Of a DNA stretch of 64,000 bases, positions 4,912-32,689 are shown in pieces. The position numbers were made by a program, and so were the translations under genes. Origin of the DNA: Candidatus Chloroploca asiatica (GTDB lineage: Bacteria > Chloroflexota > Chloroflexia > Chloroflexales > Chloroflexaceae); NCBI RefSeq assembly GCF_002532075.1, contig NZ_LYXE01000063.1:248001-312000 (forward strand), written 5' to 3'. Position 1 is the stretch's first letter, and every line of letters begins with the position of its first letter. The notes under the pieces were generated by a model, which was given only the letters and a program-made list of their open reading frames with translations, was not told the origin of the DNA and made no database searches.

Positions 4912-6164
4912 CGTCGTTTCCGTTCGTTGGCTACTGGTTCACTCACCTGCTGATACAATTGATTGAGCGAGGCAATGCTTGCGTCCCAATCATAGTGATC
5001 GACCACATGAGCCCGCCCGGCGGCCCCGAGTGTCCGTCCCAGTTCGGGATCGTGCATCAAGCGGATCACCGCCTCGGCAAAGGCCTGGGGTCGATCCGCA
5101 ATCAAGAGATGCTTGCCATTGCGCAGCCCGGCAATGCCCTCGACCGCCATAGAGGTCGCCACCACCGGAGCCTCCATAGACAGTGCCTCGAGCAACTTGA
5201 GACGCGAGCCGCCGCCAATGCGCATCGGGACAACAAAGACCGCAGCCCCATCAATATAAGGGGCGACACTGGGCACCTCACCAATTAATTCCACCTCATC
5301 GCTTGCCAGCGTCTGCACAACGCGCCCTGGGGCGCGGCCAACAACCAGAAGGCGCACCCCGCGGCGTTTCTGCCGCAGCAGAGGCAGAACTTCAGCCGTA
5401 AACCAGCGCAGGGCATCAAGATTTGGTCGATAGTCAAGCGCACCCACAAAGACCATAGTCGAGGAACCGAGATCGCCCCGTACAGCCCCAGGACGGATGC
5501 GCGCCGTATCAACGCCATTGGGCACAACCGCCAGTTTCGACGCAGCCGCAGGCACCAGGCGTTGCAACGCAGCACGATCCTGCTCTGAGACAACAAGCAC
5601 ATGGTCAAACGCCCGCAGCAGGCGTCGTTCATAGCGCGACAACTTACGCCACTGCACCAACGAATAGATCCCCGCAACGAGCCTGCCAGGTGGAAGCGCG
5701 AAACCACCCTTCAAATCAGCAAGCGCAGCGCGGCGCTGCAACAAATATTCAGCATTGAACTGATCAAGCACGATCCGCTGCGTCAGATCGCGTGCCATCA
5801 GCGCATAATGAGCCATCTCGATACTCTCGGCCTGCACCACATCATAATGTTCCGCCGCCAGCAACCGGCTCAGCGCCTCTGCATACGGCTGGCTACGATT
5901 CCGTAGGGCCATATCGGGCAACGGCGCAGCCAGCGTAGTCACAGCACGACGCAGCATCGAGCGCGGGGGCGGGCCATGCACGGTCACCACACTATAACGT
6001 TCGCGCAACGGTGCCAGTGCCGCAGCCGCAGCCGCATTGGGGGCAAACGTCAACAAGGTCAGATCATGATGCATCGCAAGACCGCGGGCCAGATGAAAAA
6101 CCCGCAAGGCCCCACCACTACGCGGCGGGAAAGGAGGATACGGGGCAAGCAGTAAAATCTTCAT
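4908..6164 (-). CDS. Glycosyltransferase, GT4 family (GT-B fold)
   Basis: A 418-residue GT-B enzyme. The N-terminal half opens with MKILLLAPYPPFPPRSGGA, the glycine-rich acceptor-domain start seen in GT4 enzymes, including exosortase-associated sugar transferases. The C-terminal donor domain carries VVFVGALDYRPN (about 222-235) and the E-x7-E-like region RIGGGSRLKLLEALSMEAP. No membrane segment is evident. The stop overlaps the start of the AceE-like gene by four bases (ATGA). It is first in this minus-strand set; the gap upstream holds a hairpin that terminates the next gene. It probably adds a hexose to a surface glycan or lipid; donor and acceptor are unknown. Confidence 0.85.
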   Translation of the reverse strand: MKILLLAPYPPFPPRSGGALRVFHLARGLAMHHDLTLLTFAPNAAAAAALAPLRERYSVVTVHGPPPRSMLRRAVTTLAAPLPDMALRNRSQPYAEALSRLLAAEHYDVVQAESIEMAHYALMARDLTQRIVLDQFNAEYLLQRRAALADLKGGFALPPGRLVAGIYSLVQWRKLSRYERRLLRAFDHVLVVSEQDRAALQRLVPAAASKLAVVPNGVDTARIRPGAVRGDLGSSTMVFVGALDYRPNLDALRWFTAEVLPLLRQKRRGVRLLVVGRAPGRVVQTLASDEVELIGEVPSVAPYIDGAAVFVVPMRIGGGSRLKLLEALSMEAPVVATSMAVEGIAGLRNGKHLLIADRPQAFAEAVIRLMHDPELGRTLGAAGRAHVVDHYDWDASIASLNQLYQQVSEPVANERKRR

Positions 6165-6244
6165 CGCTACCCTTCTGTCTGGGGTCAGCCGGAACCAGCA
6201 TGATCATACCATAGCTAGCGTGATTGCCCAAACAGGGGAGATTC

Positions 6245-6289
6245 AAGTTGGTCAAAAACGCCAGCTACGCTGGCGTTTTTGACCAACTT
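6245..6289. terminator. Perfect 21-bp hairpin, AGC-tac-GCT apex
   Basis: Arms 6245-6265 and 6269-6289 match perfectly, loop tac. It lies just after the stop of the minus-strand stress-protein gene and about 80 bases upstream of the glycosyltransferase start, so it can end the former transcript. It belongs to the AGC-N3-GCT apex family. Confidence 0.75.
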
Positions 6290-6308
6290 AAAACAGCCCC
6301 CTGGGAGC

Positions 6309-6869
6309 CTACGCTCGTGCAGTCATCCGACGCAGACCAGCCGGAGGATCGACCCGAGCAATTTCAAAAGGACTGCAGGTTTTGATGATAGCAAACGCCG
6401 TATCAACGGCTGCGGGGGTCGACGCACTGGTCGACACCTGCGGTCGGCGCTGAATTTCACCACGCGCAGCGGCCTTCTCAGCCGCACTGCCCAGCAGATA
6501 CGCAACCGGAATGCCAGCCAGAAAACCGAGGACAATGCCAATGACCAGGGCAACCCCGAGCCAGGTCAGCGCGACAGCAAGGGTCGTCGGAAAGTTTGCC
6601 AGCATACCCATATTCCGGTTTTCGGGAAAGACCCCATAAATCAACCCAAGCAAACCACCGAGCGCACCGATGGTCACCATCCCACCCAGGGTCGAGACCA
6701 GAATGGTCTTGATGCGAAACCATTCAACTGTCTCGCCAAGACCAAGGTACGCACCAGCACCATCGTCACTCATCCCGACCGTCACCTCACCAAAACCAGC
6801 CTCTCGCAAACGGGACGCCGCCAGTTGGGCTTGCGCCTGGTCAGTAAAGGTTGCCATCACCATTGCCAT
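6309..6869 (-). CDS. DUF1269/YflT-like general stress membrane protein
   Basis: A 186-residue protein. The first ~50 residues form a small alpha/beta module (FTDQAQAQLAASRLREAGF) like the N terminus of general-stress protein 17M/YflT. Two hydrophobic segments follow (about 60-85 and 100-130), rich in Gly and Ala, and then a polar tail. The start at 6869 is preceded by GGAGCA at good spacing; frames further upstream would begin in unrelated sequence. It is transcribed divergently from amt and ends in a hairpin. Its role is probably in envelope stress or osmotic response, by family resemblance only. Another DUF1269-like gene lies at 51360-51848. Confidence 0.6.
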   Translation of the reverse strand: MAMVMATFTDQAQAQLAASRLREAGFGEVTVGMSDDGAGAYLGLGETVEWFRIKTILVSTLGGMVTIGALGGLLGLIYGVFPENRNMGMLANFPTTLAVALTWLGVALVIGIVLGFLAGIPVAYLLGSAAEKAAARGEIQRRPQVSTSASTPAAVDTAFAIIKTCSPFEIARVDPPAGLRRMTARA

Positions 6870-7029
6870 GGCACGTGCTCCTTGCCCATACGGGCTTGCC
6901 GGCAAGCAGACGTAGCTCGCCACCATTGCCTCTATTGTACCGCGTCTGGATACGGTTGTGTGCAGCCAACATGAACGACTTGTACAAAAGATCCAGCTTT
7001 CGTTCGAATGATTTTGGATGCCTTGACTC

Positions 7030-7057
7030 TTGATACAACAGGGCATTCTGTTAACAT
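7030..7057 (+). promoter_or_regulatory. Candidate sigma-70 promoter of amt
   Basis: TTGATA at 7030-7035, a 16-base spacer and TAACAT at 7052-7057. Initiation near 7064 would give an amt leader of about 245 bases. Confidence 0.4.
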
Positions 7058-7222
7058 AGTTATTATCTAGCAACCAAACAAGACAGATATTTCAGGCCAT
7101 GTGCGCCAACATGCGTAAGGGGGTGAGTACTACGTTCGCTACCCGCTCTGCAACGTCGCAGCGCCGGGGGTGAGCTGCTCTAACGAGACACAACTATCGC
7201 TGAGTAGCGTACTTCCGAAGTC

Positions 7223-7276
7223 GACCGGATGGATTTCTCTCGTATGTCTCATAAGTTTCACGCATCCGAACTGGTC
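7223..7276 (+). promoter_or_regulatory. Structured element in the amt 5' leader
   Basis: GACC 7223-7226 can pair with GGTC 7273-7276, and GGATG 7227-7231 with CATCC 7263-7267, leaving a 5-base bulge. The helix ends about 20 bases before the amt ribosome binding site (AAGGAG, about 7296-7301), so it could affect translation. Function is unproven. Confidence 0.3.
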
Positions 7277-7309
7277 ACAAGCTGCATATGTTGTTAAGGA
7301 GTGTTCAGA

Positions 7310-8629
7310 ATGGAAGAGATGGTAGTTGCGCTTGATACGATGTGGTTGTTGTTGGCAGCGTTCCTTGTCTTCTTCATGCAGGCCGGGTTTGCCTTGCTGG
7401 AAGCCGGGGCGACGCGCTCAAAAAATGCTGTCAACATTTTGATGAAAAACTTGATGGACTTCTGCATCGCAGCGCTGACCTTCTGGATGATCGGCTGGGG
7501 TTTTGCCTATGGTGCCTCAGCAGGTGGTTTTATCGGTGTCGATCAGTTCTTCCTCGGTTATGATGCAGCTGAGGCTGGTGGCGTACCAATCCTGGCAAGC
7601 TGGCTCTTCCAGGTGGTCTTTGCTGGCACTGCGGCAACGATTGTCTCTGGGGCCCTGGCCGAGCGCACAAAGTTCTCGTCCTACCTGATTGTCAGCGCGG
7701 TGATGGCCGTGCTCATCTATCCGGTGGTGGTTCACTGGGTCTGGAGTGGCGCAGGCTGGCTGAGTGATCTTGGGTTCACCGATTTCGCCGGCAGTACGGT
7801 CGTTCACAGCGTCGGCGGGTGGGCTGCCTTGATGGGTGCGATTGTGCTCGGCGCACGCATCGGTCGCTTCTCGAAGGATGGCAAATCCCAGCCGATTCCT
7901 GGACACAACATCTCGCTGGTCGGTCTTGGTGTCTTCATTCTCTGGCTCGGCTGGTTCGGCTTCAATCCTGGGAGCCAGCTGGCACTCTCGTCACAGGCTG
8001 ATGCCAATGCGGTAGCACTGGTTGCCGTCAATACAACCCTTGCGGCCGCTGCTGCTGCTGTTGCAACCATTATCTTCACCTGGATTCGTACGGGCAAGCC
8101 TGATCCCAATCTGACCCTCAACAGTGTCATCGGTGGTCTGGTGGCGATTACTGCCCCATGTGCCTTTGTCACCCCGGTGGGCGCCGTGATTATCGGCCTG
8201 GTCGCTGGCCCGCTCCTGGTCTTCTCGACCTCGTGGCTTGAGTCGCTGAAGATTGACGACCCGGTCGGCGCAGTGCCTGCCCACCTGGTCAATGGTGTCT
8301 GGGGCACCCTGGCACTTGGTCTCTTTGCCGCCATCGAGGGCAACACCGGCACGCTTGGCCTCTTCTACGGTGGTGGCATGGCCCTTCTGATCGCCCAGGC
8401 GATTGGGGTGGTCGCGGTTGGCGTCTGGACGGTGGTGCTCTCGGGTGCGCTGTTCTATGCACTCAAGGCCACCATCGGTCTGCGCGTCAGCAAAGAGGAA
8501 GAGGAACTCGGCCTCGACCTTGGCGAGCACGGTGTCGCAGCCTATCCTGACTTTATCCCGACCCCGACCCCGGGTATGGCCCCGCCTGCGCCCCCTTCCG
8601 GTGGTGTCAGCCGCGCTCCAGCCAAGTAA
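7310..8629 (+). CDS. amt: Ammonium transporter, Amt family
   Basis: A 439-residue protein with 11 expected membrane segments that carries ammonium across the inner membrane. Key pore residues are visible: D158 in TDFAGSTVVHSVGG, and the twin histidines H166 and H325 (VPAHLVNGVWGTLALGL), matching E. coli AmtB D160, H168 and H318. The C-terminal cytoplasmic tail ends in a Pro-rich stretch. The start at 7310 follows AAGGAG by about 8 bases; the GTG at 7301 lies within that ribosome binding site. A PII (glnK) gene, often the next gene, is absent. glnA lies nearby on the opposite strand. A 26-bp hairpin follows. Confidence 0.96.
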   Translation: MEEMVVALDTMWLLLAAFLVFFMQAGFALLEAGATRSKNAVNILMKNLMDFCIAALTFWMIGWGFAYGASAGGFIGVDQFFLGYDAAEAGGVPILASWLFQVVFAGTAATIVSGALAERTKFSSYLIVSAVMAVLIYPVVVHWVWSGAGWLSDLGFTDFAGSTVVHSVGGWAALMGAIVLGARIGRFSKDGKSQPIPGHNISLVGLGVFILWLGWFGFNPGSQLALSSQADANAVALVAVNTTLAAAAAAVATIIFTWIRTGKPDPNLTLNSVIGGLVAITAPCAFVTPVGAVIIGLVAGPLLVFSTSWLESLKIDDPVGAVPAHLVNGVWGTLALGLFAAIEGNTGTLGLFYGGGMALLIAQAIGVVAVGVWTVVLSGALFYALKATIGLRVSKEEEELGLDLGEHGVAAYPDFIPTPTPGMAPPAPPSGGVSRAPAK

Positions 8630-8643
8630 CCTTTCTTCACCAT

Positions 8644-8697
8644 CTAAACAACGCGTGAGGCGACAGGCTCAAGCCTGTCGCCTCACGCGTTGTTTAG
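8644..8697. terminator. Perfect 26-bp hairpin after amt
   Basis: Arms 8644-8669 and 8672-8697 are perfectly complementary around a two-base centre (ca). It lies 15 bases past the amt stop and ahead of the next plus-strand promoter, so a terminator role is likely. The apex differs from the AGC-N3-GCT family. Confidence 0.75.
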
Positions 8698-8745
8698 AGG
8701 ATCATTAAGTTGTGCATTTTGTACACTTCATGGGGCTTGTATTTG

Positions 8746-8774
8746 TTGAAATGATCCAGTTGGTCTGGTATGAT
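8746..8774 (+). promoter_or_regulatory. Strong sigma-70 promoter for the small membrane protein
   Basis: TTGAAA at 8746-8751, a 17-base spacer and TATGAT at 8769-8774, with an extended -10 TG at 8766-8767. The next ATG with a ribosome binding site is 8818. Confidence 0.65.
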
Positions 8775-8817
8775 TGAACAGGAAAAGAAACTGCAACGAT
8801 GCAGCGGAGGTTCAACC

Positions 8818-9096
8818 ATGGAAATTATATCTGACCTGCAAAGTATCCTGATCGGGTTGATCGGCTGGGCAGCCACCACGTTGATGCTTGAGAATGCATC
8901 ACGCTTGACCGTTACCGACCGTCGAGTGATGAGTGTCTTTAGCTGGACGATCTGGATGATCCCCGCATTTGGGGCCTTGGTGTTACAAGGCTTGCTCACC
9001 ACCTACACCGCCGTGCTGTATGTATGCATCACGACGCTTGCCCTTGGCGTGATTATGGTGATTGGCGTGTCGCGTCGGACACACACCCGCTCTTGA
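8818..9096 (+). CDS. Small two- to three-segment membrane protein
   Basis: A 92-residue hydrophobic protein. Segments are visible at about 5-25 (IGLIGWAATTLML), 40-60 (FSWTIWMIPAFGALVL) and 62-85, with a short basic tail. The start at 8818 is set by the GGAGG-like sequence about 8 bases upstream and by the promoter at 8746-8774; a longer frame from 8770 would begin inside the promoter. The family is unknown. It sits alone between amt and glnA, each side closed by a hairpin, so it forms its own transcript. Proximity hints at a nitrogen-related role but does not show one. Confidence 0.6.
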   Translation: MEIISDLQSILIGLIGWAATTLMLENASRLTVTDRRVMSVFSWTIWMIPAFGALVLQGLLTTYTAVLYVCITTLALGVIMVIGVSRRTHTRS

Positions 9097-9177: not shown

Positions 9178-10599
9178 TTATGAGTCGTAGTACATCGAGA
9201 ACTCATAAGGATGCGGGCGCAGGGCAATGGAGACGGCCTCACGGCGCTTGGCATCAATGTACGCCTCGAGCAGGTCAGGTGTAAAGACGCCACCCTGCAG
9301 CAAGAACTCGTAGTCAGCCTCAAGGGCATCCAGTGCTTCACCCAGTGAACCAGGCGTGCCACGGATATCGGCCTTCTCTTCGGGCGACAGCTCGTAGATA
9401 TCAACATCAAGCGGCGCAGGCGGCTCGATCTTGTTCATAATGCCATCCACGCCAGCCATCATCATCGCAGCAAAGGCCAGATAGGGGTTGCACATCGCAT
9501 CGGGGGCACGGAACTCGATGCGGCGCGACTTGGGCGACGACGAATAGGTCGGGATACGAATGGCCGCCGAACGGTTGCGCACTGAGTAGACCAGGTTAAT
9601 CGGGGCCTCGAAGCCTGGAACCAACCGCCGGTAGCTGTTGGTTGAAGGTGCACAGATTGCCAACAGGGCCGGGGCGTGCTTGAGAATGCCACCAATGTAA
9701 TACTGGGCCATCTTCGAAAGCAGCGCATACTGCGTCTCATCAAAGAAGAGCGGCTCACCATCTTTCCAGAGACTCTGGTGACAATGCATGCCCGAGCCAT
9801 TGTCGCCAAAGAGGGGTTTGGGCATAAAGGTCGCGCTATAGCCATGATCACGTGCGATCTGACGCACCACATACTTGTATTTCTGCAACTGGTCAGCCAT
9901 CTTAACCAGCGTATCAAAGCGCATATCAATTTCGCACTGCCCGGCTGTCGCCACTTCGTGATGGTGCAGTTCGATATCGATCCCAAACTCCATCATCTTC
10001 AAGATCATCTTGGAACGAATATCCTGAAGGGTATCGGTGGGCGGCACGGGGAAATAACCCTCTTTGTGGCGAATGCGATAGCCCTTATTACCGCCAGGAA
10101 CCTCTGCGCCGGTATTCCACACCGCCTCGGGGCTATCCACGAAGTAGTAGCCGTGATTCGCCGCCTGGCTAAAGCGCACATCGCTAAAGAGGAAAAACTC
10201 AGCCTCGGGGCCAAAGTAGGCCGTATCAGCAAGGCCAGTACTCTTGAGATAAGCTTCGGCCTTCTTCGCAACATTACGCGGGTCACGCGAATAGGGTTCG
10301 CGGACAATCGGATCAATAATGTCACAGATTAGCACCAGCGTCGGCACCCCGAGCGTCGTATCAACAAAGGCCGAACTGGGATCAGGCACCATGAGCATAT
10401 CGCTCTCGTTGATCACCTGAAAACCCTTGATGGAAGAACCGTCAAAGCCCAGACCCTCTTCCATCATGTCTTCGGTCAACCGCGAGGCAGGCAGTGAATA
10501 GTGCTGCCATCCGCCGAAAAGATCGGTAAAACGGGTGTCGACAATCTTGATGTCATGGTCTTTAATCAGTTTGAGAACGTCCTTAGCGGTCATACTCAT
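9178..10599 (-). CDS. glnA: Glutamine synthetase type I
   Basis: A 473-residue enzyme that condenses glutamate and ammonia at the cost of ATP. Visible family motifs are [19 protein letters not shown] near the N terminus, [11 protein letters not shown] (about 52-62), the glutamate/metal motif PEAEFFLF, the HHEVATAGQ loop and NRSAAIRIP. The C-terminal part has IYELSPEE, whose Tyr corresponds to the adenylylation-site Tyr of GSI-beta enzymes, so covalent control is possible. The start is supported by AAGGAG 9 bases upstream. Transcription is convergent with the small membrane protein gene and ends in a 29-bp hairpin. It pairs functionally with amt. Confidence 0.96.
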
Positions 10600-11157
10600 A
10601 CAGCCAATCTCCTTGTGTAGCTACAGAACGGACAGGGTCCTGCGGACGCGATCCAACCTGCGCAACGCGGCGGCGCGACAATACTGGGGCGCGACACGGC
10701 GCGAATGCACTGACGAAAAGCCCTGATGGGCGATGGACGGGAGAAGATACGAGAAAACGTCAACCCCGGGGACTCTGTATATCTTCCGAGATACAGAAAG
10801 GGCTGAACCGTTGATTGCGACTGTCTGCGCCATTGCAATGTCGACAACTATCACGCGTACCTGGCGCACCACGATGTCGATCTCTCCTTGCGCGGGTCTG
10901 GACAAGCAATTTGCCCATGCACATTACATTCCATCATAAGCGACTCTTGACCCTCGTGCCAGAGTGAGAAGATCCAATGTCAGCACGGCCTGATTGTATA
11001 AAATAAACAAATGCCCGCCTGACTCGGTTGCAGGCTACGTCCGCGACCGAGTAAGCCTCCCTAGAGGCGCTTCTATCGCTAGGGAGGCGAGGAGGTTTCC
11101 CGAGAACCCTCATACTTGACCAACGCAAAAAGCTTCTTTTCTCGGAATATCATATGC
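10600..11157. other. Non-coding region upstream of glnA
   Basis: About 550 bases with no ORF I believe. It holds the glnA ribosome binding site (around 10613-10618), a weak hairpin near 10774-10797, a 10-bp hairpin at 11055-11088, and the extended -10 of the next gene at its end. No clear glnA promoter was found. Its length suggests regulatory content. Confidence 0.5.
11055..11088. repeat. 10-bp inverted repeat with 14-base loop
   Basis: gcctccctag at 11055-11064 pairs with ctagggaggc at 11079-11088. There is no T run on either side, so it is not a standard terminator. Confidence 0.45.
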
Positions 11158-11163
11158 TATAAT
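11155..11163 (+). promoter_or_regulatory. Extended -10 promoter element
   Basis: TGCTATAAT (TG-N-TATAAT) lies 39 bases upstream of the ATG at 11203. A TTGACC at 11116 is too far away to be its -35. The element shows that the gene does not start at the upstream in-frame codon at 11116. Confidence 0.55.
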
Positions 11164-11202
11164 ACGTATGTGGGTGACAGAAGAAAGCAAAAGAGTATCT
11201 TG

Positions 11203-11676
11203 ATGAACAGTGCCTACACAGCTATTTTTGTTGGTGAATTAAGCAATGATGACAGATCATTACTTGAGGCTGTACATGTTCTGGTTGAGTTCAAGATCAT
11301 AGAAAACAGTAAAGATGCCTATTATCAGGTGACAGAAAAGATGTCTGATTATGTTATTCTGCCCCTTAGCCATTCTGATACGCACATTTTGAGGCTTTTT
11401 CATGAACTGCGGATGAATGGCCGTGTGTGCGTTATCGTCTGGGGTGAAGAGAACCTGACAGCTTTTAATGGGCGTGGCTATCGCTGGCGACGTTCGGCAA
11501 ACAAAAATGCTGCTGGCCTCGACTCATTGCTGATCTGGGGCAAGTGGCCACTGGCCGTGCCCTATAAGCGATCACAAGAGTCCCTGCGCCAATCAAGTAT
11601 CTCTTCGCACGCTAAAACGTCGGCTGAACCTACGGCCACAAGTACCGAACTTGCTGCGCACGTATCTTCGCATTGA
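11203..11676 (+). CDS. Hypothetical protein, orphan, AT-richer start
   Basis: A 157-residue protein. Residues 1-115 look folded (AIFVGELSNDDRSLLEAV, then RVCVIVWGEENLTAF), with alternating hydrophobic strands and helices. The last 35 residues are Ser/Thr/Ala-rich and probably disordered. There is no membrane segment or signal peptide. The start at 11203 lies 39 bases after an extended -10. The first half of the gene is less GC-rich than its neighbours, which may point to recent acquisition. The nucleotide-fold look of the N terminus resembles a receiver or TIR-like small domain, but I cannot assign a family. Confidence 0.5.
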   Translation: MNSAYTAIFVGELSNDDRSLLEAVHVLVEFKIIENSKDAYYQVTEKMSDYVILPLSHSDTHILRLFHELRMNGRVCVIVWGEENLTAFNGRGYRWRRSANKNAAGLDSLLIWGKWPLAVPYKRSQESLRQSSISSHAKTSAEPTATSTELAAHVSSH

Positions 11677-11715
11677 CCGCTGCGCTTCAGCCTGCTACAC
11701 AGCACGCGCCTCGTG

Positions 11716-12165
11716 CTACGAACGCTGTGAGCTGAGCCACTTGAAGACAAGCCCTACGGCACAGAAGAACAACCCGATCCAGAGCAAAGAGAGCGAGCCT
11801 CCAGGCGAACGCGAGGCCCCTACATGGGGAACGTGGGGACTGGTCGGGGTGACCGTGGCAATGGCACTAGGCGTGCGTGTGACGGTTGGTCGCATTGCAG
11901 TAGGAGTCGGTGACGGAGTCGGCGAAGGAGCCAGTGCGGTAGCCGTCAATTCGGCGCGAATCGTCTCAACTGGCTGCGTAGTGAGCGGCTTCCGGGTCGG
12001 ATCAAGCGTCGGGCGGAGGCTAACCATGGCGCCATATGCCTCGCGAGGCGGACTGACATATGCCTGCACGACCCCTGTTGCATCAGCGTATCCTCCCGAG
12101 GCGATCATCAATACCAGGAGGATCAGCAGAAGGGGGAGGAAGAGACTACGGCTGTGTTGAGACAT
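11716..12165 (-). CDS. Secreted Pro/Thr-rich protein with C-terminal membrane anchor
   Basis: A 149-residue protein with a signal peptide (FLPLLLILLVLMIASGG, cut near residue 27), a short extracellular stretch, a Pro/Thr/Ser-rich linker (about 75-120) and a C-terminal hydrophobic segment (LSLLWIGLFFCAVGLVF) followed by KWLSSQRS. That pattern of signal, stalk, membrane segment and basic tail is one of surface-anchored proteins, here without an LPXTG box. Its start lies 20 bases inside the end of the upstream gene at 12146-13543. It probably acts with the two upstream genes in the envelope. The function is unknown. Confidence 0.6.
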   Translation of the reverse strand: MSQHSRSLFLPLLLILLVLMIASGGYADATGVVQAYVSPPREAYGAMVSLRPTLDPTRKPLTTQPVETIRAELTATALAPSPTPSPTPTAMRPTVTRTPSAIATVTPTSPHVPHVGASRSPGGSLSLLWIGLFFCAVGLVFKWLSSQRS

Positions 12166-13543
12166 TCTCTACCACGTTCACGGTGATCATTGCTAGGGGC
12201 AACAGATCACCTTGATCAAAGGAGGGGTCAGTTGACAACTCATCAAATGTGTCGGCCAGTGCATAGATCTCGTACTCCTGGGCTATGGAGAACGCAAGGA
12301 AGTTCGAGCGCTCGGGGTCGGCATTGAGGGTATTAAGATCGCGGACTTCACCCGGTGCCAGTCGATCAACCCGCCAGGTTGAGCCATACTCGGCAATCTC
12401 GGGCCAGGCAACGGCCAGCGCCGGCGGCAAAACAGGCGCAATATAGAGATCCACCCAGAAGGGTTGATTGATTGGCCTGGTACCAACATTGCGCACCTGA
12501 ACGAGAATATTGACGTTTTCACCAACCTGCGGTTGTGAAGGCGTGACGGCAACGATCGCGATCTCGATCTGCGCCATAGCAGACACCGAGGTCGGCGTCG
12601 GTGGCACAACGCGGGTCGGAGGATTGACGGTCATCGATGGCTCAAGTGGCAAAGGAGGGACAGTAGCCTCGGCCATGCTGGTCGGCAACGTTGGAACAGC
12701 GGTCGCCACCGGTGTTTGCCCAGCAAGCGGGTCTTGACGCGCAATGAGGTTGCCCACCACAAAGACGACCAACATCACCACACCAAGCAAAAAGAGCAAC
12801 CAGACCCATAGAACCGGGCCAGAACGTTCTTCCTCAGCCCCCTCATCAGGTGTTACGGGCGAAGAAGCAGTGGGCTTGCCATATGTACCAAGAGCCTCTT
12901 CGAGCGGACTGCGGAACGGGGACTGGCGAGGCTGATGCTCCCAGGAAGCTCGCGGGTCTTCTTCGGACACGGGCGGGGCTTCACTTCCCGGGCCAACGAG
13001 AGGCTCTCCATCATCAACCTCAGCCACCCCGGCGGGCGTGGGCGGCGCTTCAGCATCCTCCTCTGCCACCTCGGTGGACGTGGGCGGCGCTTCGGCCACT
13101 ACCTCGGCGGGCGCAGACGGCGCTTCCGGCCCCACGAACTCCTCAGAACGAGGAGCATCACCACCAACCCCGGCGAAAAGCGCAGGCTCAAGCTCAGGGA
13201 GGCCACGATGTTGACGGAGCAACGCAGGCAACGTGGCAAGGGGATGTGGCCCGGGAGAAAGAGGTTCGAAGCCGACGGCCAAGCGCACCTGATCGGGATC
13301 AACAATGATCAGCGGGGGATGATGATGAAAATGGCGATAGCTGATCAGGACATTCGTATCGCCACCGGCACTGCCAACCACAACCAGCGCAGCCATTTCC
13401 ACCAGAGGATGGAACGGCACCTGATCATGGGTGAGCAATGTCACCTGATAGCCAACACTGGTGAGAGTCTCAACAAGAAATGGCTGACCATCACTGGCAA
13501 CATCAATAAGAAAGGCGTCTGATGGCTGAGGGTGACGTGTCAT
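12146..13543 (-). CDS. Membrane protein: receiver-like domain, acidic linker, TM, extracellular CARDB-like domain
   Basis: A 465-residue protein. Residues 1-110 look like a receiver-type alpha/beta domain (FLIDVASDGQPFLVETL, then LVVVGSAGG) but lack the usual phosphoacceptor context. Residues 125-235 are a Pro/Ala/Glu-rich linker with near repeats of EAPPTP. One membrane segment lies at about 243-266 (VWLLFLLGVVMLVVFVV). After a Pro/Thr stalk, residues 335-460 resemble a CARDB/beta-sandwich domain (VGENVNILVQVRNVG). The likely topology is inside-to-outside. The gene lies 14 bases after the coiled-coil gene and overlaps the next one. It could transmit a signal or anchor a complex; no enzyme motif is seen. 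Confidence 0.6.
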   Translation of the reverse strand: MTRHPQPSDAFLIDVASDGQPFLVETLTSVGYQVTLLTHDQVPFHPLVEMAALVVVGSAGGDTNVLISYRHFHHHPPLIIVDPDQVRLAVGFEPLSPGPHPLATLPALLRQHRGLPELEPALFAGVGGDAPRSEEFVGPEAPSAPAEVVAEAPPTSTEVAEEDAEAPPTPAGVAEVDDGEPLVGPGSEAPPVSEEDPRASWEHQPRQSPFRSPLEEALGTYGKPTASSPVTPDEGAEEERSGPVLWVWLLFLLGVVMLVVFVVGNLIARQDPLAGQTPVATAVPTLPTSMAEATVPPLPLEPSMTVNPPTRVVPPTPTSVSAMAQIEIAIVAVTPSQPQVGENVNILVQVRNVGTRPINQPFWVDLYIAPVLPPALAVAWPEIAEYGSTWRVDRLAPGEVRDLNTLNADPERSNFLAFSIAQEYEIYALADTFDELSTDPSFDQGDLLPLAMITVNVVENVSTQP

Positions 13544-13557
13544 CAGCGTTGCGAAGG

Positions 13558-14625
13558 CTACTGACCAACTACGTCAACCACTACGGCGACTTCTGACAGG
13601 CGTTCTTTGAGCATACGCTCAAGAGGAATGGCACCTCGGTAGCTTACCGCAACCGAGAGCTGCTGATGCTCGTACTCTACCAGACGCGTACTTTCAATCC
13701 CGTTGAGGTTACCGATGCGATCAAGCAGATCCGAGGCAATGATAAAACTCTGCACATCTTTGAAATGCACCGTATATTCGGTTTGTTCAGGGTGGGCAGC
13801 GGGCGGTGCAGGTTCGGCGGGTGGCGCAGATTCAACCACCACCGCAGGCTCACCGGGCACTGTCGCTTCGACCATCCGCTGAGACTCAGGATCTGGCTGG
13901 GACGGAGGAGCATCGGGCGCAAACGGACGCACCGATGGCTCGGGCCAATTCGCCTGAACAGGGGGAAGAGCGCCAGTCGACGGTGACTCACTGACACGCG
14001 CATAGGAGCGTTCAGCTAACTCAACGTTTTTTTTTGCTTCAGAGGTGGATGACGGGGGTAAACCGACCGAAGACATTGGCTTCAGCATATTGCTGAGCGA
14101 GCGCTGGAGATCCATCAACTGGGCCGACATCTGCTGCGTTTCAGCAAGGATCTGCTCACGCTCGGCCTGGGCCTCACGGATCATGCGTTCGCAATCAGCT
14201 TTAGCGGCAGCGCGTTGCTGGGCAACCTCGGCGGCCACCTGTTGGCGTGTCTGGGCGCGCTCTTGCTCGGCCTGATGACGAGCCTGGTTCAGAGCCTGGT
14301 CGTGCTGGCGACGTTCCTCAGCGAGCGCCACGCGGAGATCGGCAAGTTCCTGGCGCAGAGCATCGCGCATCTGGATTTGCTCCTGACGCTGACGCCGATA
14401 GCGCGCAATGAAGCGCTCGGTCTCCTGCTCAAGCTGACGGGTAAACTCACCACCAAACTCCACCGTCTGCTGAATACTCGTTTGGATTTGCTGCTCAAGT
14501 GTTTGATAGATCGCTAAACGCTTCTGAATCCACTCACTGAAGCGCTGCTCGTCATCAAACGAACTTTCCTGGGCTGAAGACGGCGGGAGATCAGGTTCAG
14601 GAGGCCAGGCAGAGCCTTGAGCCAT
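13558..14625 (-). CDS. Cytoplasmic coiled-coil protein with C-terminal alpha/beta domain
   Basis: A 355-residue protein. Residues about 25-185 form a long Gln/Glu/Arg-rich coiled coil (QEQIQMRDALRQELADLR). A Pro-rich linker covers 200-275. The last ~75 residues (VHFKDVQSFIIASDLLDRI, then LSVAVSYRGAIPL) look like a compact beta-alpha-beta domain. There is no membrane segment. The start at 14625 (MAQGSAW) is preferred over 14649, whose first residues look non-coding. It is the first gene of a three-gene minus-strand set and is divergent from the hydrolase gene. A scaffold or cytoskeleton-like role is an inference from the architecture. Confidence 0.6.
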   Translation of the reverse strand: MAQGSAWPPEPDLPPSSAQESSFDDEQRFSEWIQKRLAIYQTLEQQIQTSIQQTVEFGGEFTRQLEQETERFIARYRRQRQEQIQMRDALRQELADLRVALAEERRQHDQALNQARHQAEQERAQTRQQVAAEVAQQRAAAKADCERMIREAQAEREQILAETQQMSAQLMDLQRSLSNMLKPMSSVGLPPSSTSEAKKNVELAERSYARVSESPSTGALPPVQANWPEPSVRPFAPDAPPSQPDPESQRMVEATVPGEPAVVVESAPPAEPAPPAAHPEQTEYTVHFKDVQSFIIASDLLDRIGNLNGIESTRLVEYEHQQLSVAVSYRGAIPLERMLKERLSEVAVVVDVVGQ

Positions 14626-14805
14626 AGGACAAACCTCGTGGTTGTGCAAACTGGTGCATGCTGTACAAACACCGGGGAGGAGAGACGCTGAACAGCACTA
14701 TGAACAAGATTGCTTAGGCACATTTGCGGCATCAGACTGCGCAATTTTACGCACCGCTTTCGGGGGAAGTATAGCGCATTGCGCTGATGATTGTCAAGCG
14801 TGGTG

Positions 14806-14811
14806 TATAAT
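14806..14811 (+). promoter_or_regulatory. -10 element for the hydrolase operon
   Basis: A perfect TATAAT 39 bases upstream of the chosen ATG at 14851. No good -35 is seen at the standard spacing. It rules out the in-frame codon at 14791 as a start. Confidence 0.5.
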
Positions 14812-14850
14812 AGCACGCATTATGTGGTCGGTTTAGTTCGCGGAGGCCTT

Positions 14851-15702
14851 ATGCAGGCAAACGTCCTGCCCGTTGATGAGTATCCACTCCGTGGGCCGGT
14901 TCAGATCTGGGATGGGCCTGTCTTTTACCGTGAAACGTGTGGGGAGCCAGCAGTTCACCCACCCCTCTTGCTCTTGCACGGATGGGGCGGATCGTCACGC
15001 TACTGGCGGCCCACGATGGCTGATCTGGGCAACGATCGTATGGTGATCGCCCCTGATTTGCCTGGGTTCGGTGAGTCGCCACCACTCAAGGGGACTGCTA
15101 CCGCCGAGAATCTGGCTGAGATGGTGATTGCGTTTGCCGATACGATGGGGCTGGAACAGTTTGACCTTAACGGGCACTCATTCTGTGCAAGTGTCGCCGT
15201 CCATCTCGCGGTACGGTATCCGCACCGCGTACGTCGCCTAGTACTCACCTGTGTGAGTACGTTTCGAAGCGAGGGCGAACGGCGCATTGTCGAGCAAGTA
15301 CATCATATCCTGGCGCTCTGGATGGCGTTGCGACGACCGTGGATGGGACGGGTTCGCCCCTTCTATCGTACAGTTGCATCACGGTTTTTTTACCGAACGC
15401 CCAGTGATGATCAGGTTCTCTACGAGAGTTTCATTGATTTTATGAAGATGGATCAGCGTACAGCCCTTGAAACCGCGTCGAGTGCCGGGCATCCGGCCAT
15501 CAATCCAGCCATGGCGTCAGTACGCAATCCAACCTTGGTGCTCGGGGCGCGCCAGGATAATATTATGCCGCCCCCAGGCACCCCCGAGGTGGCACGGCTG
15601 ATCCCCGATAGCCGACTCGTCTGGATGGAGCGGTGTGGGCATTTGCCGATGATCGAGCGCCCGAAGGTCTATCATCGCGTGTTGCGTGAGTTTCTTGATT
15701 GA
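14851..15702 (+). CDS. Alpha/beta hydrolase
   Basis: A 283-residue single-domain alpha/beta hydrolase. The HGWGG oxyanion motif (43-47) precedes the nucleophile S110 in NGHSFCAS, and the likely acid and base are D236 (GARQDNIMP) and H264 (CGHLPMIERP). The start at 14851 follows CGGAGG by about 5 bases and the -10 at 14806. No signal peptide is seen, so it is cytoplasmic. The next gene starts 13 bases after its stop. The substrate, an ester, thioester or C-C bond, cannot be told. It leads a three-gene plus-strand set with an aminotransferase and a methyltransferase. Confidence 0.88.
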   Translation: MQANVLPVDEYPLRGPVQIWDGPVFYRETCGEPAVHPPLLLLHGWGGSSRYWRPTMADLGNDRMVIAPDLPGFGESPPLKGTATAENLAEMVIAFADTMGLEQFDLNGHSFCASVAVHLAVRYPHRVRRLVLTCVSTFRSEGERRIVEQVHHILALWMALRRPWMGRVRPFYRTVASRFFYRTPSDDQVLYESFIDFMKMDQRTALETASSAGHPAINPAMASVRNPTLVLGARQDNIMPPPGTPEVARLIPDSRLVWMERCGHLPMIERPKVYHRVLREFLD

Positions 15703-15715
15703 GCAAGAGGATGGA

Positions 15716-16864
15716 ATGAGCGAAGATCTCGTACGTTACCGAGCCGAATTTCCGATTACGGAGAAGTATGCTTTTTTGAGCCATGCGGCTGTCTCGCCAC
15801 TCAATACGCGGATTGTGCAGGCCGTTGCCGCCCACAATCAGCTCGCCTCGACTGAACCGCCGATGCGTTTTCTGGGGCAGGTCTTTCAACTTATGGGCGA
15901 TCTGCGCCAGCGCCTGGCGACGCTGATCAATGCCCGCGAGGCCTCTGAAGTGGTGTTGATGCCCAATACGGCGATGGGGCTCAATACGGCGGCGGTGAGT
16001 CTGCCGTTGCGGCGCGGCGATAATGTCTTGATTCTCGAAGGCGATTATCCGGCGAATGTCTACCCGTGGCAACAACTGGCCTACAAGGGCGTTCTGACGA
16101 AAGTTGTGCCGCAGCACAAGGGTGGCCTCGATCTCGATATGCTCGCCGCCCGGATTGATCGCCACACACGTGTCATCGCCCTGAGCACCGCAATGTTTGC
16201 CACCGGGTTTCGCAATGATATCGAGGCGGTTGGCAAGCTCTGCAAAGAGCGGGGGATCTATTTTGTCGTTGATGGCATCCAGACGCTGGGGGCGTTCCCG
16301 ATGGATGTGCAGGCATGCAACATTGATTTCCTGGCGGCTGGCTCGCAAAAGTGGATGCTCTCGGCACCGGGGGCGGGCTTTCTCTATGTCCGTCAAGAAC
16401 TGCTTGATGAGCTTGAGCCAGGGGCGTATGTGGGGGCATCGAGTGTGGTTGACGCGATGAACTACCTCGATTACAACCTAACCTTCCCGGCCAGCGCAGA
16501 CCGCTTTACGCTTGGCACACCGAATATTTACGGGGCCGTGGCACTGCGCGAGTCAGTGATGTTGCTGCAAGAGGTTGGCATCGAGCGGATTCAGCGCCAG
16601 GTGCTGACCCATGTGGATACGCTGATCAACGACTTGAGCGAGCGCGGGTATACCTTTGCCGCCGATCCATCGCCAGCGCATCGCAGTGGCATTGTGGTCA
16701 TTAACAACCTGCCCGACCCCGATGCAGCCAGCAAGCGCCTCGATGAAGCCGGGGTGATTGCGACGGTACGAGGCGGGCTGCGCTTTGCGCCCCACTTCTA
16801 CAATACGACTGAAGAGGTGCTGAAGGTCGGCGAAGTTCTGGGGGATAAGGAATTTCTATTATGA
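15716..16864 (+). CDS. Class V aminotransferase (cysteine desulfurase / isopenicillin N epimerase-like)
   Basis: A 382-residue PLP enzyme. The cofactor lysine is K212 in AAGSQKWMLSAPG, preceded by the PLP-contacting FVVDGIQTLGAFPMD. The N-terminal LSHAAVSPLNTRI region fits the NifS/CsdB/epimerase branch of class V. I see no conserved catalytic Cys loop of a true desulfurase, so an epimerase-like, lyase or aminotransferase role is as likely. The start at 15716 fits an AGAGGATG ribosome binding site; a longer frame at 15686 would overlap the hydrolase. The stop overlaps the next start (ATGA), so the methyltransferase is probably translationally coupled. Confidence 0.87.
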   Translation: MSEDLVRYRAEFPITEKYAFLSHAAVSPLNTRIVQAVAAHNQLASTEPPMRFLGQVFQLMGDLRQRLATLINAREASEVVLMPNTAMGLNTAAVSLPLRRGDNVLILEGDYPANVYPWQQLAYKGVLTKVVPQHKGGLDLDMLAARIDRHTRVIALSTAMFATGFRNDIEAVGKLCKERGIYFVVDGIQTLGAFPMDVQACNIDFLAAGSQKWMLSAPGAGFLYVRQELLDELEPGAYVGASSVVDAMNYLDYNLTFPASADRFTLGTPNIYGAVALRESVMLLQEVGIERIQRQVLTHVDTLINDLSERGYTFAADPSPAHRSGIVVINNLPDPDAASKRLDEAGVIATVRGGLRFAPHFYNTTEEVLKVGEVLGDKEFLL

Positions 16865-19480: not shown

Positions 19481-21439
19481 TTATTGAACAATAACAGGCA
19501 CCAGACTACACTGGACACTCCCATTCGTTGCATCGAAGAGATCAGCACACAGGTAGTAGGTACCACGATTGACTCCTGTCGTATCCCAGGTGAAGTCAAG
19601 CTGATTCTCGACAGGGATCGGCGGTGACGACGTTGACGGTCGTGACAGAACCGGCAGAAAGACCTGGGACTTCGTTGGATCTGGAAGCGGAACGGCACCT
19701 CCACCAACACGAGCAGCCAGATTCTGGCGCGGATTGGCGCGATCAGTCGTGTAATAGAAGGTTGCCTGGACTGCCGCTGGTGCTTTATTCAGACTCATAA
19801 TGACTTTGTAGGGCGTACCGGCAGCAACCGTATTGCTATTGGTCAAACGAATCGAGCGGATCCGTTGGGTGAAGGGGCCACCGCCTGTGATGCGATCCGC
19901 CACCTCGGTGATATTCTCATTGGGATCAAAACGTAGCTCAAGAATTGGTGCCGTTCGCCAATTCAACGGCCCAGTGGGGCACTCGCCTTGCCATTCCTCA
20001 GCCATGCCACTTTCAGGATCCCACAGATCAATCATGATCTGCTGGCGGCCAATGTCATAGGGGATATCGGGGCCAACTATGGTGCAACGAAAACCAGGGC
20101 GGCCACTCGTCCCCTGAATCGACCAGATCCAACGGCCAATCATGCCATGTGGAATATTAGACCACGGAACAAGCCAACTCGTCTCCATGTCAATGGTAAG
20201 ATAGCGATAGACATTTGGATCAAGGGGAAGCGGTGTATTCAATTTGATGGCTACATCAATACCGGCAGGCAACGGACCAGAAGGTGTTACGAGCAGCATA
20301 CCATCGCCATCATAGGTCGCGGTTGGAGGTGGGCTTTCCAATTGAAAATGTATCACAGTGGCATCGCCATCACCAGGACGAAAATCCCACGCATTGCCAG
20401 CGAGGGTCGCATAATCATTGCCGCTCGCAGGCGATGGCACAGCAAACGTACCAATTGGCGTCTGATTGATCTGAAGAGCCTGGTCACTGCGCTGCGAACA
20501 ACAGGTGGTCAGCGTGCCAACCCCCACCTGATAACGACCAGGCGGCACACCTTGCAGATCAACCGAGGCGCGCCCATTGATGCCATTCACTGGCGTCAAA
20601 CGGATATCGCGGGTTGTTCCCACAGGACGGAGCCACAGTGCCTGCACGGCGGCATCAGGTGCCCAGGTAATTGTATGCTCAGAAGGCGTACAATCAGTCA
20701 AGCGAATCCAATCCACTTCAAAACCTACATTGGCGGCAATCGCAGTCGGATCAATCCGCAACCCTTGCCACTGACCACGTGAGGTCCAGGCTTCACCGAC
20801 GGTAACCCCGTTGGGTGGATTGGCAAGATCGACCTGAATCACTTGCCAGCGTGGAGTTGGAAGATTGGCAAAAGCTTCCGGATAGAGCTGCATATAGGTC
20901 ATGCCAAACGCCCCTTCGGGACGATTCAGATAACGATCAGCAAACCAGAAGATCCGCATCACGTCAGGGCCAAGGCGATTTGCCGCCGGCGACTCACTCC
21001 GCAAGGCAACGTAGAGGCAGCGCAGGTTGCTAGGAATCGGTGCATTCGCCCCAACCAGATCATTGATCGGTAAGACAAGGAGATCACTCGCCGACTCGCG
21101 AATATAACCAGGAAAAAGAGGAAAGAAAGCCGCATTGCCATCACCACTGATCGCATCGCTATACGAGGAACCTCGAAAGACACCATTGCTGACTTGCGGA
21201 TCTCTGATGAGACGACGCTGACCTGATTCGTTAAGATAGTGAGAAATATCGCCATACTGATCCATATCCCATGGATTGCCGAAAAGATGGGTCGCATAGT
21301 CAAGGCTCTCGGCAATGAGATTCGTTGGCACTTGAACCCCAGATTGTTGGATTGTCTGAGCAGTACCGGGGGTAATGAGGATCATAACAACAGCAAGTGT
21401 GCCTAAGATGGGAAGCAGAAGGCGTAGAGCAGAGCGCAT
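19481..21439 (-). CDS. Large secreted protein with duplicated beta-rich domain
   Basis: A 652-residue protein with a signal peptide (LLLPILGTLAVVMILITP, cut near GTAQT at about residue 28). The mature part is rich in beta-strand patterns, Pro and Gly. Two similar units begin with YATHLFGNPWDMDQYGD and YATLAGNAWDFRPGDGD about 300 residues apart, pointing to an internal duplication, with lectin- or carbohydrate-binding-like content. The C terminus has a PTKSQVFLPVLSRP stretch common in exported proteins of Chloroflexota. The start at 21439 follows GGAGAAAGGG. It lies inside the glycosyltransferase operon, so it may bind or hold the exported polysaccharide. No catalytic motif is seen. Confidence 0.65.
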   Translation of the reverse strand: MRSALRLLLPILGTLAVVMILITPGTAQTIQQSGVQVPTNLIAESLDYATHLFGNPWDMDQYGDISHYLNESGQRRLIRDPQVSNGVFRGSSYSDAISGDGNAAFFPLFPGYIRESASDLLVLPINDLVGANAPIPSNLRCLYVALRSESPAANRLGPDVMRIFWFADRYLNRPEGAFGMTYMQLYPEAFANLPTPRWQVIQVDLANPPNGVTVGEAWTSRGQWQGLRIDPTAIAANVGFEVDWIRLTDCTPSEHTITWAPDAAVQALWLRPVGTTRDIRLTPVNGINGRASVDLQGVPPGRYQVGVGTLTTCCSQRSDQALQINQTPIGTFAVPSPASGNDYATLAGNAWDFRPGDGDATVIHFQLESPPPTATYDGDGMLLVTPSGPLPAGIDVAIKLNTPLPLDPNVYRYLTIDMETSWLVPWSNIPHGMIGRWIWSIQGTSGRPGFRCTIVGPDIPYDIGRQQIMIDLWDPESGMAEEWQGECPTGPLNWRTAPILELRFDPNENITEVADRITGGGPFTQRIRSIRLTNSNTVAAGTPYKVIMSLNKAPAAVQATFYYTTDRANPRQNLAARVGGGAVPLPDPTKSQVFLPVLSRPSTSSPPIPVENQLDFTWDTTGVNRGTYYLCADLFDATNGSVQCSLVPVIVQ

Positions 21440-21527
21440 GATCCAACCCTTTCTCCAAGATCTGACATGCGTGTACCGGCAAACCGTTGTCAGTGGGCAT
21501 ATTGTAACAGGTCTGGCGGCTTTTCTG

Positions 21528-22535
21528 TTAACCAAGCAACTGCTGGGCAGAGGTCAGCGCCGCGTGGTAATGGGTTTGTCCAGGCACTTGCTGCAGGCGA
21601 TGCAACACTGAGACAATGTGGGCATGGGCAGCATCCTCATTCAGGTGAAGAGGCATACGAGCAGCCACGATATCATGCATGTGAGCCAGCGTTTGTGCAT
21701 AAGCCCAACGCAAGGCACGTTCCTCGGGGGTTGCACGACGCGCTGCACAATACGAAGCCTCAGCAGGAGCAAACGCCTCGCTCAGTTCGGTCAGACTCAA
21801 GCGCTTGAGCAGATAGCGCAAACGGCCTTGATGATAGTAAGCCATGCGGGTAACTTCGTCACGTGTCGAGTGGGACTCTTGATGGGCGAGGGTTGCCGCT
21901 GGTGCATACACCAGTCGATAGCCCGCCCGGACGAGTCGCCAGCAGAGATCGACGTCTTCGTAATACGCGGGCCAGAAGCCTTCATCAAACAGACCAACCT
22001 CAACAAGGGCCGCCAGGCGCAGCGCCAACGCCGCGCCGGTTAGCAACGCATAGTCACGCGGCGACTCATATTGGCCCTGATCAGTCTCGCCCCAACCTAC
22101 ATGGCGCACCAGGCCCAACGGCCATTCCAGCCGCGCCCCGGCATGCTGAAGGCGTCCGTCAGGGTAACGGATCTTGCTGCCAACGGCCGCAACCTGAGGC
22201 TCGTCGAACTGAGCCAGCAAACCGGCCAACCAGCCTGGATCAACCAGCGTATCCTGGTTGAGCAGGACGGCAACATCAAACGAAGGCGAGGCAGCGATGA
22301 TATGGCGCAGGCCCACATTCATCCCCCCGGCAAAACCAAGATTGCGCGAATTGGCCAGAATTTCGACCTCGGGCAAGGTGGCGGCAACCTGAGCGATGCT
22401 CGCATCGGCAGAGGCATTATCCACAACAAGGAGTTTGTCGGACGGGCGGCTCTGGCGCAACACGGCAGCAAGACAAGGAAGCAGCGCATCGGCAGCATTC
22501 CAACTCAAGACAATGACAGCCACGCGCACCGGCAT
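21528..22535 (-). CDS. Glycosyltransferase family 2 (rhamnosyltransferase-like)
   Basis: A 335-residue GT-A enzyme. The N terminus has VRVAVIVLSWNAADALLPC and LLVVDNASADASI, the nucleotide-binding start of GT2. The DxD-like element is VLLNQDTLVD (about 88-97), and GFWPAYYEDVDLCWRLVRAG is the ED motif of the rhamnosyltransferase branch. An extra C-terminal helical region follows (about 240-335). The ATG overlaps the stop of the GT4 gene upstream (TAATG). It probably transfers dTDP-rhamnose or a similar sugar; the donor is inferred only from the family. Confidence 0.87.
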   Translation of the reverse strand: MPVRVAVIVLSWNAADALLPCLAAVLRQSRPSDKLLVVDNASADASIAQVAATLPEVEILANSRNLGFAGGMNVGLRHIIAASPSFDVAVLLNQDTLVDPGWLAGLLAQFDEPQVAAVGSKIRYPDGRLQHAGARLEWPLGLVRHVGWGETDQGQYESPRDYALLTGAALALRLAALVEVGLFDEGFWPAYYEDVDLCWRLVRAGYRLVYAPAATLAHQESHSTRDEVTRMAYYHQGRLRYLLKRLSLTELSEAFAPAEASYCAARRATPEERALRWAYAQTLAHMHDIVAARMPLHLNEDAAHAHIVSVLHRLQQVPGQTHYHAALTSAQQLLG

Positions 22536-28197: not shown

Positions 28198-28211
28198 CCC
28201 GCTGCTCCTTC

Positions 28212-32685: not shown

Positions 32686-32689
32686 AGGC

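Follow-up and report, generated by a model that had tools for sequence, protein, structure and literature searches.

Polar landmarks such as HubP/FimV and TipN are thought to place appendages, and in filamentous Chloroflexota pilus placement, gliding and mutual recognition are poorly explained. Septal channels of unknown make-up have been reported in Roseiflexus castenholzii and Candidatus Viridilinea mediisalina, long pili are found near the septa, Tad pilus genes are the only pilus genes reported for three Chloroflexales species, and Chloroflexota genomes have no homologues of sepJ, fraC or fraD (PMC7332563). The window analysed here, a stretch of 64,000 nucleotides of Candidatus Chloroploca asiatica (contig NZ_LYXE01000063.1, positions 248,001 to 312,000), contains three neighbouring genes, here called genes 1, 2 and 3, which an earlier note made from the sequence alone had described as an inside-to-outside chain of a coiled-coil protein, a trans-membrane adaptor and a surface stalk. 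All three are intact minus-strand open reading frames (ORFs) at 11716-14625, where the note had placed them. Their linkage stands; the idea of a three-gene set does not, the set comprising at least four genes with an overlooked gene 4 on the plus strand (11203-11676). Genes 1 to 3 are inherited together, and the four genes may, in the reading tentatively favoured here, encode a non-enzymatic scaffold that spans the envelope and positions or tethers a surface structure.

Distribution and linkage of the gene set

A profile search found gene 1 in 9/158 Chloroflexia genomes (G000, G001, G002, G003, G021, G023, G064, G066 and G067), belonging to five genera in two families, and a single-sequence search found it in 6/61 relatives. 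Presence is patchy within the genera g5 and g11. In each of these nine Chloroflexia carriers, genes 2 and 3 accompany gene 1 (9/9, counting G023 as inferred across contig ends): seven genomes (G000, G001, G002, G021, G064, G066 and G067) have the order 1-2-3 on one strand, G003 has 2-3-1, and in G023 one contig ends with gene 1 and the first part of gene 2 while another begins with the remainder of gene 2 and gene 3, so that the gene order of this genome is inferred. Both contig ends (L044, L045) fall in a VVIEPPP-type repeat that forms the proline-rich linker of gene 2, a possible cause of the break in the assembly. Flanking genes agree for the most part within the three Chloroploca genomes and differ between genera, which indicates that the linkage is not merely that of a conserved block. 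This supports genes 1, 2 and 3 as one co-inherited unit; the comparison of gene order across genomes that the earlier note had proposed reveals a trio kept together in every Chloroflexia carrier of gene 1 and not scattered homologues. Matches to the CARDB-type part of gene 2 are far more widespread (48/61 genomes), being mostly short, confined to the outer domain and often within much longer frames, and the orthologues accepted from this 61-genome search were those of G000, G001, G002, G003, G021 and G023.

Genes 1 to 3 are real genes under purifying selection, and they change more quickly than housekeeping genes do. In comparisons within the three Chloroploca genomes, with G001 and G002 supplying the orthologues, their dN/dS lies at 0.13-0.34 with no internal stops, compared with 0.01-0.04 for glnA and 0.05-0.09 for a neighbouring hydrolase; gene 4 looks looser, at 0.57 in one pair.

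Two traits were tried as partners of the set and rejected. Gas vesicles looked promising among the 61 relatives, the family being present in 6/6 carriers versus 19/55 non-carriers, but of the further carriers G064 has it and G066 and G067 do not. Phototrophy was not informative, a reaction centre being encoded in 9/9 carriers but also in 55/149 non-carriers; within family f1, 40/41 genomes (carriers counted) give a reaction-centre match.

Architecture of the encoded proteins

None of the four proteins matches a Pfam or NCBIfam family above cut-off, and the clear match to a known family that the earlier note had named as counter-evidence did not appear. Nor did family scans recognise an enzyme, kinase or output domain above cut-off in any of them, in agreement with the note's picture of a set without an enzyme.

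Gene 1 begins with the N-terminal signature EQRFSEWIQKRL.IYQ and continues with a coil (residues ~25-185), a proline-rich linker and a ferredoxin-like C-terminal domain. The coil shows heptad periodicity, its observed power being reached by 1/2000 shuffles, and has a single proline in 161 residues; hydropathy shows no membrane segment in the protein. The coiled coil of the earlier note is thereby borne out, the folded end domain having escaped it. This domain is modelled with a predicted local distance difference test score (pLDDT) of 82 and a predicted template-modelling score of 0.65, and its closest folds are heavy-metal-associated (HMA) domains (Z 9.7, 2.2 Å over 75 residues). HMA metal-binding domains carry a CXXC metal site; despite the HMA-like fold, none of nine aligned gene 1 C-terminal domains contains a Cys, so the CXXC hallmark of HMA domains is absent. 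Profiles of PDB sequences gave no useful match for the end domain or for gene 4, and the matches of gene 1 to MAT1, ATG14, ZorA and similar proteins, covering the coil only, were discarded as coiled-coil noise.

Gene 2 is laid out as a pseudo-receiver (residues ~9-113), a low-confidence linker, a membrane segment (243-268), a Pro/Thr stretch and a CARDB-like immunoglobulin-like (Ig) domain (~326-457). The one membrane segment that the earlier note had assigned to this adaptor is also the only one given by hydropathy (window starting at residue 245). The receiver-like inner domain, likewise predicted, is recovered by profile comparison (Table 1), in a degenerate form without the residues for phosphorylation: both the phospho-acceptor Asp and the conserved Lys are found in 0/9 orthologues, compared with 4/6 and 6/6, respectively, of six ordinary receivers in the same alignments. 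Pfam itself gives no receiver match (PF00072) for gene 2. By fold, the outer domain is CARDB-like as anticipated, matching chain 3idu_B (PF1109 CARDB) with Z 10.5 and a root-mean-square deviation of 2.5 over 102 residues at 21% identity, although it scores 15.3 bits against Pfam CARDB (PF07705; E 0.024), below the 22.7-bit gathering cut-off. Other Ig-fold chains score like CARDB against the gene 2 sandwich, so that fold alone does not single CARDB out. In the AlphaFold model a succession of elements as in receivers, a single helix where the membrane segment lies and a beta-sandwich can be recognised; as the full model is weak (mean pLDDT 55), only its folded parts were used.

Gene 3 runs from a hydrophobic N-terminus through a conserved stretch (RPTLDPTR.PLT.QP.ATIRAELTATA) and a Pro/Thr stalk to VPHVG, a membrane segment and a basic end, with hydropathy showing two hydrophobic segments, near either end. 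The signal peptide, stalk and anchor that had been proposed for it hold in so far as both ends are hydrophobic, the signal peptide being called by hydropathy and position alone; what had been overlooked is an LPXTG-like tail. In nine aligned rows the motif reads VPHVG, VPHAG, VPNAG, IPAAG or MPESG and never LPXTG, with V, A or S in place of the Thr and V, I or M as first residue. All nine rows have the motif-like stretch and the hydrophobic segment and most have the basic end, G003 not clearly. Sortase matches occur in 153/158 genomes. Two other ORFs of the loci examined have LPDTG tails; with the start codons chosen, neither of them begins with an evident signal peptide.

Table 1. Coordinates, within the 64,000-nucleotide window, of the genes and features discussed
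Feature	Position	Strand	Description
Gene 1	13558-14625	minus	355 amino acids (aa); coiled-coil protein, no membrane segment
Gene 2	12146-13543	minus	465 aa; bitopic adaptor
Gene 3	11716-12165	minus	149 aa; Pro/Thr stalk protein
Gene 4	11203-11676	plus	157 aa; soluble degenerate receiver, convergent with gene 3
Gene 1 C-terminal ferredoxin-like domain (beta-alpha-beta-beta-alpha-beta)	13561-13803	minus	Predicted structure of last 81 residues
Gene 2 pseudo-receiver	13205-13519	minus	hhalign against receiver domains, 95.4%, E 1.8e-8, 109 columns
Gene 2 CARDB-like domain, predicted outside	12173-12568	minus	Fold match 3idu_B
Sigma-70-like promoter match ahead of gene 1	14768-14797	minus	TTGACA-18-TATACT, 11/12 consensus positions; consensus match only

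The genes are tightly spaced, with 14 bases between genes 1 and 2, a 20-base overlap of genes 2 and 3 and 39 bases between genes 3 and 4. Promoter-like sites number five in the region versus 2.2 expected from shuffles, and Rfam has no match in window positions 10000-16000. Surface-polysaccharide genes lie near the set (4911-6164 and 22538-31327), including glycosyltransferases, an ABC exporter with a Wzt_C domain and a 1365-aa multi-domain methyltransferase/glycosyltransferase. Large ORFs of 684 and 492 aa within this polysaccharide block (19484-21535 and 31327-32802, minus) have no Pfam match at E 1e-4.

Gene 4 and its second copy

Gene 4 is related to the N-terminal domain of gene 2 (hhalign 81.6%, E 1.1e-5, 104 columns), for which a single negative control, a pair of unrelated alignments, gave 0.1% and E 0.56. 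Its similarity to receivers themselves is weak (E 0.0023, probability 12.4%; one copy reaches Pfam E 0.024, below cut-off), and the phospho-acceptor Asp and the conserved Lys are each found in 0/12 gene 4 domains, in an alignment weaker than that of gene 2. Relatives of gene 4 occur in the same 6/61 genomes as gene 1 and, by profile, in exactly the same 9/158 Chloroflexia genomes; because the carriers are partly close relatives, this co-distribution does not amount to nine independent events. Linkage of gene 4 to the trio is seen in 5/9 carriers. G021 and G064 have gene 4 immediately ahead of gene 1 on one strand, G000 and G001 have it in convergent orientation to gene 3, and in G003 it is divergent at a distance of 1.4 kb. 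Gene 4 and the trio are on different contigs in G023, G066 and G067, gene 1 of G067 being at a contig end. G002 lacks the linked copy between gene 3 and glnA (L046 10916-11432) and retains the one at the other locus.

That second copy adjoins a large conserved protein, a hybrid histidine kinase, in G000, G001, G002 and G021, and in two genera the kinase comes first and on the same strand as the gene 4 copy. Its domains are HAMP, HisKA_3, HATPase, receiver and LuxR, as scanned in two (L064, L067) of the four loci. At L064 the kinase occupies 5809-8994 and the gene 4 copy 9239-9712, and a gene 4 copy likewise adjoins the kinase at L065, L066 and L067. Among the Chloroploca genomes the kinase is only 78-91% identical, compared with ~97-99% for adjacent genes, which indicates fast evolution.

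Relatives beside flagellar genes outside the class

Homologues of gene 1 were also sought in 400 genomes sampled across the phylum from a larger group; the carriers G023, G064, G066 and G067 are not among the matches. Matches came from 18/400 genomes: the five known carriers, three genomes of family f63 (G360, G422 and G446), which lie outside the class in the same phylum, and ten others. The latter were all dropped: five f24 matches run through stop codons, those of G195, G258 and G335 cover the coil only, and those of G200 and G216 span the linker and end domain at E 2e-4 to 6e-4. The f63 end domains align to that of gene 1 at 96.3% (E 1.7e-9), and the f63 coils to its coil at E 4.3e-16 with a common W..RRL.LY start, a score that the coiled-coil character itself can inflate. 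The N-terminal domain of gene 2 was matched in 20/400 genomes, five strong matches being the known carriers and fifteen weak; the three of these fifteen that were read (L105, L107, L111) appear by eye to be ordinary receiver domains.

The counts given for family f63 are out of its three matching genomes. In G422 the strand carries, in order, FlgN, FlgK, an RfbD-like gene, a FliT-like gene (below the Pfam cut-off), flagellin, an adaptor-like gene and, last, the gene 1 homologue, with a second flagellin on the other strand between FlgK and the RfbD-like gene. The adaptor-like gene (L128 10605-11744) encodes 379 aa, made up of a long N-terminal region, one membrane segment and, outside, an Ig-like CarboxypepD_reg domain (E 5.1e-11). 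In G446 the homologue lies between a FliT-like ORF and a FlgC-like gene (Flg_bb_rod, Flg_bbr_C), followed by a FliE-like ORF, the FliT-like and FliE-like labels having been given by eye. With distant relatives of gene 1 beside flagellar genes, we lean towards a part in placing surface structures and away from one in contact between cells.

A possible envelope-spanning scaffold

Known pseudo-receivers without catalytic residues go with protein binding, and the CARDB-like Ig fold is a module of the adhesion or ligand-binding type. A structural or positioning role best fits the combination of co-inheritance, no recognised enzyme, an outer binding-type domain, a dead receiver and an inner coil, and the inside-to-outside chain of the earlier note finds support in the predicted layout of soluble coil, bitopic adaptor and stalk protein. 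Every step from fold to function is nonetheless inferred. In such a scaffold, gene 1 would form a patch or rod under the membrane, its end domain docking on the pseudo-receiver of gene 2; gene 2 would carry the position of gene 1 across the membrane and display its CARDB domain outside beside gene 3, and the outer parts of both would hold or place a surface structure, be it a pilus, a sheath or a neighbour. Gene 4 could bind the same docking site, or form mixed dimers with the pseudo-receiver, and so tune assembly, the kinase beside its other copy suggesting signal control.

Several observations weigh against a scaffold of this kind. Ferredoxin-like folds are common, as are Ig folds, so that fold matches tell little about function, and the charges flanking the gene 2 membrane segment, whose N-terminal side is putatively inside, are ambiguous. 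Linkage of gene 4 to the trio is unseen in 4/9 carriers, including G002 with its missing linked copy. Outside the class, flagellar neighbours are found in 2/3 f63 genomes only, the homologue of G360 following an RfbD-like ORF near genes that by eye resemble those of pyruvate dehydrogenase; the adaptor-like gene is present in 1/3 f63 loci, and comparison of its N-terminal domain in G422 with that of gene 2 (E 0.049, probability 1.1%) leaves homology unsupported.

A wider version of the scaffold, which we regard as doubtful, would make the set part of a phylum-wide family of positioning systems, consisting of a coiled-coil rod with a ferredoxin-like dock, an adaptor engaged through a dead receiver, and swappable outer modules. 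The module would then vary by lineage, being CARDB in Chloroflexales and, in the flagellar setting beyond the class, a carboxypeptidase-regulatory-like fold. If true, this family would be an appendage landmark of Chloroflexota's own, unrelated to the known ones.

Alternative explanations

The main rival, by virtue of the kinase that adjoins a gene 4 copy, is a transmembrane sensor in which CARDB would bind an outside ligand and pass the signal through the pseudo-receiver, the coil and gene 4 to that hybrid kinase. We consider it rather unlikely. The set does contain two degenerate receivers, and the other copy of gene 4 stands beside the hybrid kinase in 4/9 carriers; the four proteins themselves, however, give no above-cut-off match to a histidine kinase, HAMP or second-messenger domain, and among the loci inspected for ORFs none showed a kinase next to the trio. 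The long low-confidence linkers flanking the membrane segment, moreover, would make a better tether than a rigid signal helix.

The flagellar neighbours in 2/3 f63 loci could instead mean that the gene 1 family is an accessory of surface-appendage assembly, serving flagella in f63 and Tad pili or another appendage in Chloroflexales, where septum-near pili and Tad genes are described (PMC7332563). We regard this as improbable; ORF inspection with a few family scans noticed no pilus or flagellar gene at the Chloroflexales loci. No carrier was found, either, in g9 and g23, which we take to be the genera of the Tad-bearing C. aggregans and R. castenholzii.

That the set serves cell-cell contacts or septal junctions in filamentous phototrophs, too, has little probability. 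All nine carriers encode a reaction centre, and channels of unknown make-up have been reported in R. castenholzii and Ca. Viridilinea mediisalina (PMC7332563), but 55/64 class genomes with a reaction-centre match are without gene 1. Among these, presumably, are members of Chloroflexus and Roseiflexus, genera which are filamentous, so that filaments as such can probably form without the set. Gene 1 is lacking in G042 of family f4, which we presume to be Roseiflexus (5.8 Mb in a single contig), and hydropathy reveals neither a permease nor a channel-like protein in the set.

A mobile or defence cassette, patchy through exchange as the distribution within g5 and g11 might suggest, is very improbable given the purifying selection on the genes, the largely constant flanks in three Chloroploca genomes, the lack of a nuclease or toxin-like partner above cut-off, and a PADLOC search (for which no cut-offs are given) that returned only weak matches to the gene 1 coil (best E 0.0025) and, up to E 1, nothing for genes 2-4.

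Comparison with known systems

The domain types are known, as is, in general terms, a scaffold that spans the membrane; what is new is that the four proteins have no Pfam or NCBIfam match above cut-off and that the set appears to be undescribed. The earlier note knew of no described system with these genes, and a search of open-access literature showed no description of the set either. As a defined, co-inherited set with clear parts, it is small enough for tagging, binding and deletion tests, and its distant relative in a flagellar setting hints at what to look for in its role.

Part by part, the likenesses are accompanied by clear differences. In outline gene 3 resembles LPXTG sortase substrates, having a hydrophobic N-terminus, a Pro/Thr stalk, a short motif-like stretch, a membrane segment and, in most rows, a basic end; its motif never reads LPXTG. 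Single-domain response regulators (PF00072) resemble the N-terminal domain of gene 2 by profile and gene 4 weakly; both of the latter lack the phospho-acceptor Asp and the conserved Lys. CARDB proteins (PF07705) share with gene 2 an Ig fold near the PF1109 CARDB domain; gene 2 falls under their Pfam cut-off and, unlike them, has this fold fused to a pseudo-receiver in one polypeptide.

As whole systems, cyanobacterial SepJ/FraC/FraD are similar in belonging to filamentous phototrophs and in joining a coiled coil to a membrane part. SepJ has a permease domain, in contrast to the one membrane segment of gene 2; by hydropathy a permease domain of the SepJ type is absent from the set, there being no membrane segment in genes 1 and 4, one in gene 2 and two in gene 3. 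HubP/FimV and TipN offer the analogy of a non-enzymatic membrane-spanning adaptor with long linkers and coiled coils. The present set gives no family match and differs from these polar landmarks in its parts, with a pseudo-receiver inside and a CARDB-like domain outside.

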